Below are positions 27,649-30,461 of a DNA stretch of 64,000 bases, one piece after another. The position numbers were made by a program, and so were the translations under genes. The DNA comes from Candidatus Latescibacterota bacterium. Lineage in GTDB: Bacteria > Latescibacterota > UBA2968. Location: NCBI GenBank assembly GCA_022821275.1, contig JAJEDY010000093.1:1-64000 (forward strand), in the 5' to 3' direction. The notes under the pieces were generated by a model. The model did no database searches. It saw only the letters and a list, made by a program, of their open reading frames with translations, and was not told the DNA's origin. Position 1 is the first letter of the stretch. Each line of letters begins with the position of its first letter.

Positions 27649-27813
27649 TTAAAAATCCATAATTTGCAAAAAAAAAGCGCGCCACCTTCCGGTAGCGCGC
27701 GGCACAAACAAAGATCGCCAGATATCCGGTGGTGGACATACGTCTCCCATCGCGCCTACCGACCACCAGCGTCCACCACTATTAAATAGCTCTGTCATCC
27801 CATTCAAAAACAT
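27649..27813 (-). other. Possible second Trp-containing leader ORF
   Basis: A 54-codon frame (MFLNGMTELFNSGGRWW...) carries adjacent Trp codons at 27763-27768, within the loop of a 9-base hairpin (27729-27737 with 27771-27779). The ribosome site is weak and the frame runs through the terminator, unlike a standard leader. It may be chance in G/T-rich sequence. Confidence 0.25.
27668..27700 (-). terminator. Intrinsic terminator directly upstream of the TrpRS-like gene
   Basis: On the minus strand GCGCGC-TACC-GGAA-GGTG-GCGCGC forms a long GC stem followed by nine T residues, 41 bases before the TrpRS-like ATG. Its 5' arm CGCGCTACC can pair alternatively with GGTAGGCGCG (27751-27760), with one bulged base, so it may be a conditional terminator. 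Confidence 0.75.
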
Positions 27814-27890
27814 CGCATATCTCAAAAAAGGTTGTTTCGGGTGGCTGGGAAGGGTTCCGCGAAATCCGCGAAATCCGCACCATCCGCGAT

Positions 27891-27921
27891 AAAAAAACCG
27901 CCGTCAAAAAGCCGACGGCGG
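27891..27921 (-). terminator. Attenuator terminator following the Trp leader peptide
   Basis: CCGCCGTC and GACGGCGG form a perfect 8-base stem on the minus strand followed by seven T residues, 42 bases after the leader stop codon. The 5' arm region CCGTCGGC (27911-27918) can alternatively pair with GCTGACGG (27951-27958), forming an antiterminator. Confidence 0.8.
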
Positions 27922-27962
27922 TCAATTCAGAATTTTTAAATAAAAACAATCCGTCAGCAAAC

Positions 27963-28067
27963 TCACAAAGCACCACACCACCACCAACTGCGGACAGTCT
28001 CAGACACACGGAGAGCCAGCACCCTATTGGGCGTCGCATCAGTCAAAATGTGATCGTGCATAGTCAT
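27963..28067 (-). CDS. Trp-rich leader peptide of a transcription attenuator
   Basis: A 34-codon frame begins MTMHDHILTD and ends SETVRSWWWCGAL before the stop. Three consecutive TGG codons stand at 27978-27986 (residues 28-30). GGGAG is placed 6 bases before the ATG, and a sigma70-type promoter lies 29 bases further upstream. The segment just before the Trp codons (TCCGCAG, 27988-27994) can pair with CTGACGGA after the stop (one bulge); that same segment pairs with the 5' arm of the downstream terminator. This is the classical ribosome-mediated attenuation layout of trp leaders. The next real gene downstream is the TrpRS-like gene. The peptide itself need have no function. Confidence 0.75.
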   Translation of the reverse strand: MTMHDHILTDATPNRVLALRVSETVRSWWWCGAL

Positions 28068-28085
28068 AACATACTCCCGTGATAT

Positions 28086-28137
28086 ATCGCCGATAAAAAT
28101 AACGACTTCAATACCCCAAGTCAAGCCGTTTGATTTT
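28086..28137 (+). repeat. 52-base direct repeat, copy A
   Basis: By eye this copy matches 30505-30556 at 43 of 52 positions, nearly all differences being transitions. The two copies bracket the GH-like and PhyH genes in the same orientation. Shared core: AAAATAACGAC, CAAGTCAA, CGTTTGATTTT. Confidence 0.8.
28096..28124 (-). promoter_or_regulatory. Promoter of the Trp leader (copy A of a duplicated promoter)
   Basis: On the minus strand TTGACT and TATTTT are 17 bases apart. It lies in the 52-base repeat 28086-28137, whose second copy is at 30505-30556 with the same promoter elements. Confidence 0.65.
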
Positions 28138-28138
28138 T

Positions 28139-29611
28139 TTAGCTCACGAACCGGAACGAGTAGAGCTTTGCCGACCGCATCACGACGCGAAGCCGCAACG
28201 GACCCCGATCCGTGGGGATCCGACGGCCAGCCCCCTGCCACGATACGCTTACCCTGATTGCGTTGGCGACAATCGTCTCACACGTCTTCAGCGTATAGCC
28301 TTCCACGGGACGCCCCTCCTCGTCCTGCAGCTCGACCAGCAGCCACCCGCCCCCGCCACAATCTACATTCAACTCGATCGCCTCGCCGTCGAACGCCAGC
28401 GGCGGTGTCACAAACTCTCCGCCAGAGAGAGACGCATCCGCCGAGACGAAACCGTCTCGCCTCAGGATCGCCCGGAACAGCCCGGTGTTCCAACCGTCGC
28501 GCACCTCATCATTGTGCCGACTTCCCCGCCCCGAATAGTAGATCCACATCTCGGTCTCGGTAAGCACGGGCCAGACATTGGCCATCACCATGCCACCCGA
28601 AGGTCCCCCATCCAACCCCCGACGGATAAACGGCTCCCGGTCTCCCTGATACGACCATATGACCCCGTCACGGCTCGTGAGAAGCCGGACGTCCATCGTT
28701 GCCGGGAAATCGGACGCTTCCCAGTGGTAGTAAGCGGCGGGCATCATGAAGTACGCATCATCCGCCTCGGGATGCTTATAGACCGCATTCGTGTAGTAAT
28801 CAACCTGCGGCCTGTCCATCGACCGGGGAGGCAGAGGGGCTTCCAGGTCCAGCGCATCCCCTTCCAGGACGATCAGCGTGGGCTGCGACCAGGTCTTGAA
28901 GTCAGGCGACGTGATCCGGCCAACGGACCGGTACCGCTTTCCGAGCTTCATTTCCGCCGCCTCGTCCCGACGCTGGGTTTCATGCACCCGCGTATAGCCG
29001 ACGTAGAGGTCCAGACTGTCATCCCAGAAGAAAACATTCTGAGTATCGCACATCTGGTTGGGCGGATTCGGCTGGCCCTCATCATACGTCCAATGGATCC
29101 CGTCGGGTGAATGCATGGCCCAAAGCCCCGGCAGAACACCGGCCTCGATCTCGTCATCCCTGGGATAGTACTTCGACCAGAGCCGGTAGCGCGAATCGGC
29201 GGGCGCGCGTTCGTCTATATAGACCGTCGCACCCTGCATGCTCTGGCGCTCATCCAGCGGAGCGACGATGTTGTTGGCGGTGCTACCCTGGAACGGGACG
29301 AGGTGCATTTCCGGCTTCTGCCAGAAAACCCCGTCTTCGGACTCCGCATAACAGAGACGGACTGCCCCTTCTTGCGGACCACCCGATTTCATCTGTGCGC
29401 CGTACCAGAGCCGGAAGTGCCGCTCCCCTTCCCGGATCACCGTGTTGTACCCCCCAATCCCGAGCTTCTCCCACGGCTTGTCCGCTCGAAGCACCGGCTC
29501 GGGGGACTGCACAGGCGGGTTCATGCGGAGGTTGATGCCAGAAGCCCGATCAAAGAAGCGCGCGTCGATAAAAAGCTGCTTCCGGTTCCCGACATGGACT
29601 GTATTAGACAT
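28139..29611 (-). CDS. Glycoside hydrolase-like five-bladed propeller protein (GH32/43/130-like)
   Basis: The protein (490 residues) shows repeated blade motifs: RLWYGAQM, RLCYAESEDGVFWQKP, LWAMHSPDGIHWTYDE, GRITSPDFKTWSQP, LLTSRDGVIWSYQGDREP and MWIYYSGRG. Such SxDGxxW blades occur in GH32/43/62/130-type sucrose, arabinan or mannoside enzymes and in large uncharacterised groups of Planctomycetes and Poribacteria. A C-terminal beta domain (GEAIELNVDCGGGGWLLVELQ) follows. The start at 29611 has GGGGGGT upstream. It lies 4 bases after the PhyH gene and forms a GC-rich two-gene unit with it. The promoter repeat follows immediately after the stop. Confidence 0.8.
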   Translation of the reverse strand: MSNTVHVGNRKQLFIDARFFDRASGINLRMNPPVQSPEPVLRADKPWEKLGIGGYNTVIREGERHFRLWYGAQMKSGGPQEGAVRLCYAESEDGVFWQKPEMHLVPFQGSTANNIVAPLDERQSMQGATVYIDERAPADSRYRLWSKYYPRDDEIEAGVLPGLWAMHSPDGIHWTYDEGQPNPPNQMCDTQNVFFWDDSLDLYVGYTRVHETQRRDEAAEMKLGKRYRSVGRITSPDFKTWSQPTLIVLEGDALDLEAPLPPRSMDRPQVDYYTNAVYKHPEADDAYFMMPAAYYHWEASDFPATMDVRLLTSRDGVIWSYQGDREPFIRRGLDGGPSGGMVMANVWPVLTETEMWIYYSGRGSRHNDEVRDGWNTGLFRAILRRDGFVSADASLSGGEFVTPPLAFDGEAIELNVDCGGGGWLLVELQDEEGRPVEGYTLKTCETIVANAIRVSVSWQGAGRRIPTDRGPLRLRVVMRSAKLYSFRFVS

Positions 29612-29615
29612 AGAG

Positions 29616-30461
29616 CTACCCCCCTTCTGGATGGCGACCACCCAGCAATTGAAGCAGGCGATCACTGGCAGACACCCGTGCATCTTCGGGAATGGGCACC
29701 CGGTTCATCCATCCGAACCGCCGGAATGCCCAGTCAACCGCGTACTGCGACTGCATCAGATACCGCGTGCGATCGGACCTGTTCGGCGCCCCCCGGTGCC
29801 AGCACTGCGGATCCTGCACGTAGATATCCCCCGCCTTGCAGAAAACAGATACGGGACCTTGCCCCTCAAACTCCGGATTCTCCTGACTATTTGGATCCTT
29901 ACCTGAAAGGTGGCTTCCGGGGACGTACTGTGTGGGACCGTGTTCGATCCGCTCGATATCGCTCAGCGCCATTTGCACGGTAATCCAGAGCACCGGCGGT
30001 CGAATACGGGGATCGTGGCGGGGCACGCTCTCCGGGACGGGAAAGTGAACCGCGCCATCCACGTGCCACCTTTCGATCGCCACGCCGGACTGGTTTCGCA
30101 GCACGTTCTGCCCACAGAACCGGCAATTGGGTCCAACGATCGCCTCTGCAAGACTCAGGATCGGTTCCCGAAGGAGCATCTCCCTGAAGATCCCGTCCAG
30201 CGCAATCGTATTCCGCAGGATAAACGGTCGATCCCCCTCGCCGTGCATTTGCACGTACCGGCGATCGTGCAAGCCGAGATCTTCCTCTTCCGCAAGCAGA
30301 GGATCGTCGAGAAGCGCATCCGTTCGGTCTCGCAGCGCCTGCATTTCACCTGCTTCGAGCACATCGGGGATATGCACGAAACCGTCCCTGTGGAAGCGGT
30401 CGATGATCCCCCGGGTGGTCTCTTCTCCAAATGGCTCGCCGGATTGGATCGGACTCGGCAA
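29616..30461 (-). CDS. Phytanoyl-CoA dioxygenase (PhyH) family protein
   Basis: This Fe(II)/2-oxoglutarate oxygenase of 281 residues has the family sequence DRFHRDGFVHIPDVL, the iron-binding HxD in ERWHVDGAVHFP, ALSDIERIEHGPTQYVPGSH, and the distal histidine in QDPQCWHRGAPNRSDRTRYL with the 2-oxoglutarate arginine. Bacterial PhyH proteins hydroxylate diverse small molecules; the substrate is unknown. A TTG at 30461 is the best start because AAGGAGG stands 6 bases before it; the longer frame has no site. The strong promoter at 30515-30543 lies ~55 bases upstream. It is cotranscribed with the glycosidase-like gene. Confidence 0.88.
   Translation of the reverse strand: MPSPIQSGEPFGEETTRGIIDRFHRDGFVHIPDVLEAGEMQALRDRTDALLDDPLLAEEEDLGLHDRRYVQMHGEGDRPFILRNTIALDGIFREMLLREPILSLAEAIVGPNCRFCGQNVLRNQSGVAIERWHVDGAVHFPVPESVPRHDPRIRPPVLWITVQMALSDIERIEHGPTQYVPGSHLSGKDPNSQENPEFEGQGPVSVFCKAGDIYVQDPQCWHRGAPNRSDRTRYLMQSQYAVDWAFRRFGWMNRVPIPEDARVSASDRLLQLLGGRHPEGG

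Follow-up and report, generated by a model that had tools for sequence, protein, structure and literature searches.

We found that the 0.5-kb leader of trpS2, a gene for an auxiliary TrpRS product, very probably contains two ribosome-mediated Trp attenuators arranged in series on one transcript. The window analyzed here is a stretch of 64,000 nt from a Candidatus Latescibacterota genome of 5.66 Mb (G000; its relatives carry labels of the same form), and the positions of all features within it are given in Table 1. A preliminary description of this DNA had reported a promoter, a ribosome site, a 34-codon leader with three consecutive Trp codons, pairing segments 2 and 3 and a terminator, all of which are present on the minus strand as described, and had read them as ribosome-mediated Trp attenuation in front of a trpS-like gene, which appears to be the best reading in the light of the comparative evidence: orthologous leaders, whose comparison it had proposed, have kept their Trp codons as well as the ability to form the alternative pairings. 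The description of a single attenuator for a short TrpRS-like gene needs revision, since the attenuator it recognized is conserved but is the first of two in series, the second having been missed.

Table 1. Features of the trpS2 leader and gene in the window
Feature	Positions	Strand	Basis or remark
Promoter-like TTGACT-17-TATTTT	28096..28124	-	Consensus scan and alignment with relatives
Ribosome-binding site GGGAG, leader 1	28074..28078	-	Sequence; kept across the genus
Leader ORF 1, 34 codons, ATG at 28067	27963..28067	-	Sequence; frame-keeping indels
Attenuator 1 segment 2, GCTGACGG	27951..27958	-	Pairs with segment 3
Attenuator 1 segment 3, CCGTCGGC	27911..27918	-	Folding and pairing counts
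Attenuator 1 terminator and T-run	27891..27923	-	Stem 27923-27896, 12 pairs; conserved
Spacer between attenuators, 77 nt	27814..27890	-	Single copy in genome
Leader ORF 2 (MFLNGMTELFNSGGRWWSVGAMGDVCPPPD...), 54 codons, ATG at 27813	27649..27813	-	Extends beyond terminator 2
Trp-Trp codons of leader 2, doubling as segment 1	27763..27768	-	
Attenuator 2 segment 2, CCACCACCGG	27726..27735	-	Two alternative partners
Attenuator 2 terminator	27668..27700	-	Stem 27700-27677 and T9; covariation
trpS2, auxiliary TrpRS-II-type protein, 248 aa	26881..27627	-	PF00579, PDB matches

Attenuator 1 begins with a promoter-like site that is the sole sigma-70-type match in 600 bp in a consensus scan, a result that is weak alone given a chance mean of 0.7 matches. 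At the aligned position, nine genus members have TTGACA or TTGACT and G013 has TTGACA, while no promoter-like site was evident there in G008. The leader peptide, MTMHDHILTDATPNRVLALRVSETVRSWWWCGAL, has the C-terminal end SWWWCGAL and a TGA stop codon (27965-27963), and its three Trp codons, TGGTGGTGG, lie at 27986-27978. Because TGGTGGTGG is common by chance, with 133 occurrences in the genome, the case for attenuator 1 rests on conservation. Leader 1 was found in 11 of 11 genus genomes (R2, E-value of 4e-20 or better) and in two other genera, represented by G013 (1e-16) and G014 (2e-4); the latter match is weak by E-value, yet its sequence indicates that the element is real. The Trp leader, ribosome site and terminator are kept in the genus genomes as well as in G013 and G014, with in-frame WWW or WW (plus VW) present in leader 1 of 12 genomes. 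In relatives, the leader retains the Trp codons and stops beside or within segment 2, with ends such as ...VRGWWRAAVWVC*, ...LGWWSVPSRPGRL* and ...VTGWWWHNVMLRGQS*. Indels within leader 1 are multiples of three, which does not hold for those located 3′ of the stop codon. Conservation among the genus members is partly a reflection of close kinship.

These observations bear on the idea that the interval from 27891 to 28124 is merely the terminator of the upstream gene (28139-29683) accompanied by a chance short ORF. That gene lies on the same strand and ends 15 nt ahead of the promoter-like site, and WWW codons are frequent by chance; however, the element persists next to other neighbors, as the upstream sequence differs in G004 and a divergent 515-aa plus-strand ORF stands upstream in G013, and the Trp codons, stop position and frame-keeping indels of leader 1 are all conserved, which makes this explanation extremely improbable. 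The upstream gene itself encodes a 514-aa protein without a Pfam or NCBIfam match at an E-value of 0.001.

The folding of attenuator 1 points to a 2:3 antiterminator. When nascent RNA was folded with a ribosome positioned at the Trp codons and with segment 4 not yet transcribed, the mean probability of the 2:3 pairing was at least 0.96 in 12 of 12 genomes and 1.00 in the window. Among 10 genomes, 98.8% of the cells of the 2:3 helix are paired; the changes in the aligned set are one-sided only, with no two-sided changes. In other genera, different letters are able to fill the same 2:3 role (GGCCGAC:GTCGGCC in G013 and CAATCG:CGGTTG in G014). The preliminary description had suggested looking for covariation in this stem. 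It had also proposed a competing 1:2 pairing (27994-27988 with 27958-27951), and this half of the alternative fared less well than 2:3: the helix is bulged and has six pairs, and although most genus members can form it, covariation was absent in the genus alignment, and segment 2 pairs upstream with a probability of only ~0.05 in the ensemble predicted for the window. Given that the 1:2 pairing is weak, termination at attenuator 1 seems to rely on a ribosome sitting at the stop codon, and the role of the 1:2 hairpin as a protective element is doubtful.

A second Trp leader with its own terminator occupies 27813-27668 on the minus strand, between terminator 1 and trpS2. The start and the Trp codons share one frame in 17 leader 2 sequences, and the frame from ATG to WW is constant in all of the trpS2 leaders compared, G011 differing in the start codon used. 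This frame remains constant up to the Pro codons, with indels between the Trp and Pro codons being multiples of three, and drifts thereafter. Segment 2 of this attenuator encodes Pro-Pro-Pro and has two alternative partners, namely the Trp codons and CCGGAAGGTGG in the terminator; it would pair with the loop and 3′ arm of the latter and not with the 5′ arm, which is an unusual topology. Terminator 2 shows covariation, with five pairs changed on both sides and a score reached by 0 of 500 shuffles. The 2:4 pairing is possible in 94% of cells, with no two-sided changes within the aligned set, while the 1:2 pair counts are approximate, as the Trp codons are partly shifted by three columns in the alignment. 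With a stalled ribosome, the minimum-energy fold is antiterminator 2 in G011 and G012, and the terminator is favored at equilibrium in most others.

Leader 2 has no stop codon ahead of terminator 2, and a trailing ribosome could therefore itself disturb this terminator. We place no weight on the lack of a stop as a selected feature, since composition alone gives it with a probability of 0.23 to 0.55 per sequence, and we rejected start-stop coupling between leader 2 and trpS2, given that the frame past the Pro codons is not conserved.

Attenuator 2 is conserved more widely than attenuator 1 and lies nearer to trpS2. Its covariance model (R1) matches all genomes of family 1 and three of family 2; the strong matches (E-value of 6e-14 or better) sit before trpS2, except in G010, whose contig ends inside the element. 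When 84,980 species genomes were scanned for the exact pattern, the 10 places that matched were all in this lineage. R1 also gave weak matches (E-values from 1e-6 to 1e-2) in other parts of the phylum, which were set aside as resembling chance GC-rich hairpins, a judgment made from the sequence alone. The primary sequence of attenuator 2 is strongly conserved (CCACCACCGG ... ACCGGAAGGTGG), beyond what simple attenuators often show, and would fit a T-box or another RNA that senses tRNA-Trp or tryptophan directly. An Rfam scan that included the T-box gave no match at the gathering score or at an E-value of up to 1, however, and both the single frame linking an upstream start to the Trp codons and the multiples of three among the Trp-to-Pro indels speak for translation, so we regard a direct sensor as very unlikely and a ribosome-read leader as the better account of the gene-proximal element.

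Next, we considered how the two attenuators are joined. From the T-run of terminator 1 to the ATG of leader 2, the spacer measures 77-90 nt in G000, G002, G004 and G007, whereas five congeners have 14 nt; as 14 nt leaves no space for a promoter, both attenuators are expected to lie on one transcript. The spacer (27814-27890) has gained or lost a purine/pyrimidine-rich stretch that contains GCGGATTTCGCGGATTTCGCGG repeats. The spacer was also considered as a multicopy repeat of this genome, which its copy number rules against (Table 1). Two other layouts exist. In G014, a Tautomerase_2 gene (L042:1341-1721, minus strand) stands between the attenuators, and in family 2 the main trpS, with a Trp leader of its own, stands upstream of attenuator 2 and trpS2. 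Judging by these layouts, the back-to-back pair may have been derived by the loss or absence of a first cistron. Relatives of the G014 Tautomerase_2 gene are located elsewhere in the genome in other genus members.

According to the mechanism that we propose, a ribosome would translate the short Trp-containing ORF of each leader just behind RNA polymerase. With ample charged tRNA-Trp, the ribosome would clear the Trp codons and mask segment 2, allowing the terminator to form; at attenuator 1, masking would be due to a ribosome halted at the stop codon, which lies next to segment 2 or within it, and at attenuator 2, to a ribosome translating into segment 2 itself. When charged tRNA-Trp is scarce, the ribosome would stall on the Trp codons, leaving segment 2 free to pair with the terminator sequence, and transcription would proceed. 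Since the polymerase would face both gates in turn, leakage should fall and induction should sharpen.

The gene behind these gates encodes a protein whose best PDB match is the Deinococcus radiodurans TrpRS II (2a4m, 1yi8) and that carries the class I features PF00579 and a HIGH-like motif, MHLGH. Compared with its congeners, trpS2 of G000 lacks 84 residues (252 nt, in-frame), including KMSKS and the anticodon-recognising region that follows it. The identical 252-nt deletion is found in G004, where the copy is cut by the contig end, and in G005, whereas seven congeners have a 332-residue trpS2 with KMGKS. The target had been called TrpRS-like in the preliminary description; the protein is of the TrpRS-II type, the deletion was overlooked, and the product is not a normal TrpRS. 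A structural model of the truncated protein is predicted to have the TrpRS catalytic fold (mean pLDDT of 79; TM of up to 0.87 to TrpRS, query-normalised). We found no bacterial TrpRS paralogues without KMSKS in a literature search of open-licence papers. The presumed housekeeping trpS is located on contig C18 and has no leader of the attenuator 1 or 2 kind.

The loss of KMSKS raises the question of whether both attenuators, though real, are relics before a decaying pseudogene, with nothing being regulated in this genome. Degenerate-looking copies of trpS2 do occur elsewhere, with the HIGH region altered in G015 and G020 and three TAG stops interrupting the reading frame in G011, although its attenuator 2 is intact (L035, G011:C47, ~234746-235391, minus strand); the G011 copy is probably a pseudogene. 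On the other hand, the deletion is common to three separately listed genomes with its frame intact, leaders 1 and 2 are both intact, and the three truncated alleles show the mark of purifying selection: dN/dS is 0.05-0.08, with nonsynonymous changes (5/22, P = 2e-6; 3/20, P = 2e-7; 2/11, P = 4e-4) far below the neutral expectation, a signal to which recombination with full-length alleles may contribute silent changes, as G000 is placed differently in the trees built from trpS2, from main trpS and from the leader. In the family-2 pair G015/G017, dN/dS of trpS2 is 0.38 and the C-terminus is strongly kept. Taken together, a relic is unlikely, albeit less so than either of the alternatives discussed above, and we favor regulation of a gene that is still under selection.

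What the selected product does can be outlined only tentatively. Charging of tRNA by the truncated protein is unlikely. One possibility, which we hold to be somewhat less probable than its opposite, is that the double gate acts on a TrpRS-derived protein that is unable to charge tRNA and has been repurposed and placed under starvation induction, and that trpS2 has lost catalytic motifs in parallel in a second family of this order; in the family-2 copies, both the HIGH and the KMSKS region deviate from TrpRS, but in a different manner. Such a protein might be, for example, a regulator, a binder of tryptophan or a Trp analogue, or a protein acting together with the main TrpRS. For the full-length orthologues, the analogy with Streptomyces TrpRS1 and Deinococcus TrpRS II (PMC9437257, PMC1262725) makes the role of a spare TrpRS that resists stress or inhibitors plausible. 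The sequence ADYQALT of TrpRS2 has Gln at the place of the His in ADLHMLT of the main enzymes of family 2. A change of this His is linked to indolmycin resistance in other bacteria.

Leaders rich in aromatic codons also precede other genes. Upstream of trpE in G000 (L108 ~1230-1420, C20), a leader ORF, MMNAFATYFWYFWRRFDGRYYYYRRPSKSVVCPAF, in which codons for Phe, Trp and Tyr are abundant, is followed by a GC-rich hairpin and a T-run, possibly forming an attenuator responsive to more than one aromatic amino acid. The main trpS of family 2 (G020, G015, G018, G016 and G017; L017-L021) has a Trp leader that is conserved, ...GSW(W/R)W(H/Y)DFNRTGRLTAC, and a terminator lies immediately ahead of the gene. 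The occurrence of such leaders before trpE and main trpS, in the same genome and its relatives, supports the attenuation reading for trpS2. Ribosome-mediated attenuation is mainly known from proteobacteria and actinobacteria; here it would operate in a little-studied candidate phylum and before three kinds of genes (trpS2, main trpS and trpE). Where two attenuators that respond to one amino acid directly follow each other, nature would provide a test of the contribution of a second gate, and the gene found between the attenuators in G014 hints at the origin of such pairs. Moreover, a truncated TrpRS that is seemingly under selection behind Trp switches makes a synthetase function without tRNA charging directly testable.

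The mechanism is thus a known one, classical Trp attenuation, and what is unusual is its tandem form and its truncated target. The E. coli trp attenuator has a leader with tandem Trp codons, a stop near segment 2 and competing 2:3 and 3:4 pairings, and the trpS2 leader resembles it in its tandem Trp codons, a stop near segment 2 and competing pairings. It differs from the E. coli system in having a synthetase-like target instead of a biosynthetic one, in the weak 1:2 hairpin of attenuator 1, and in an attenuator 2 that has no stop before its terminator and whose segment 2 would pair with the loop and the 3′ arm of that terminator. The attenuators of the Salmonella mgtCBR leader read two unlike signals, ATP and proline supply, whereas both leaders described here carry Trp codons, each with its own intrinsic terminator. 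That tandem arrangement (PMC3641672) was the only one of amino-acid attenuators found in our literature search of open-licence papers. Attenuators have been predicted for the auxiliary trpS2 of Streptomyces avermitilis and described for actinobacterial trp operons (Seliverstov et al. 2005, PMC1262725), with the actinobacterial examples sharing a conserved gGCC-rGCy-GGCC triple (PMC1262725). Like the Streptomyces trpS2 leader, the one presented here combines a UGG-rich leader peptide, an antiterminator and an intrinsic terminator before an auxiliary trpS; unlike it, two attenuators of different sequence stand in series, in a different phylum and before a target without KMSKS. Since seven congeners are full-length, the comparison with the Streptomyces auxiliary trpS fits these congeners better than G000. 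Another close system in Streptomyces is TrpRS1 of S. coelicolor, which is inducible and resistant to indolmycin (Kitabatake 2002, as cited in PMC9437257). The closest solved relative, D. radiodurans TrpRS II, is likewise an auxiliary TrpRS alongside a main one, but it is full length and charges tRNA (PMC9437257), whereas the window protein is without the KMSKS stretch. GluQ-RS (YadB) and HisZ, as cited in the same paper, are synthetase-derived and without the usual tRNA-binding part, and trpS2 resembles them in keeping the synthetase catalytic fold after losing the part needed for normal charging.
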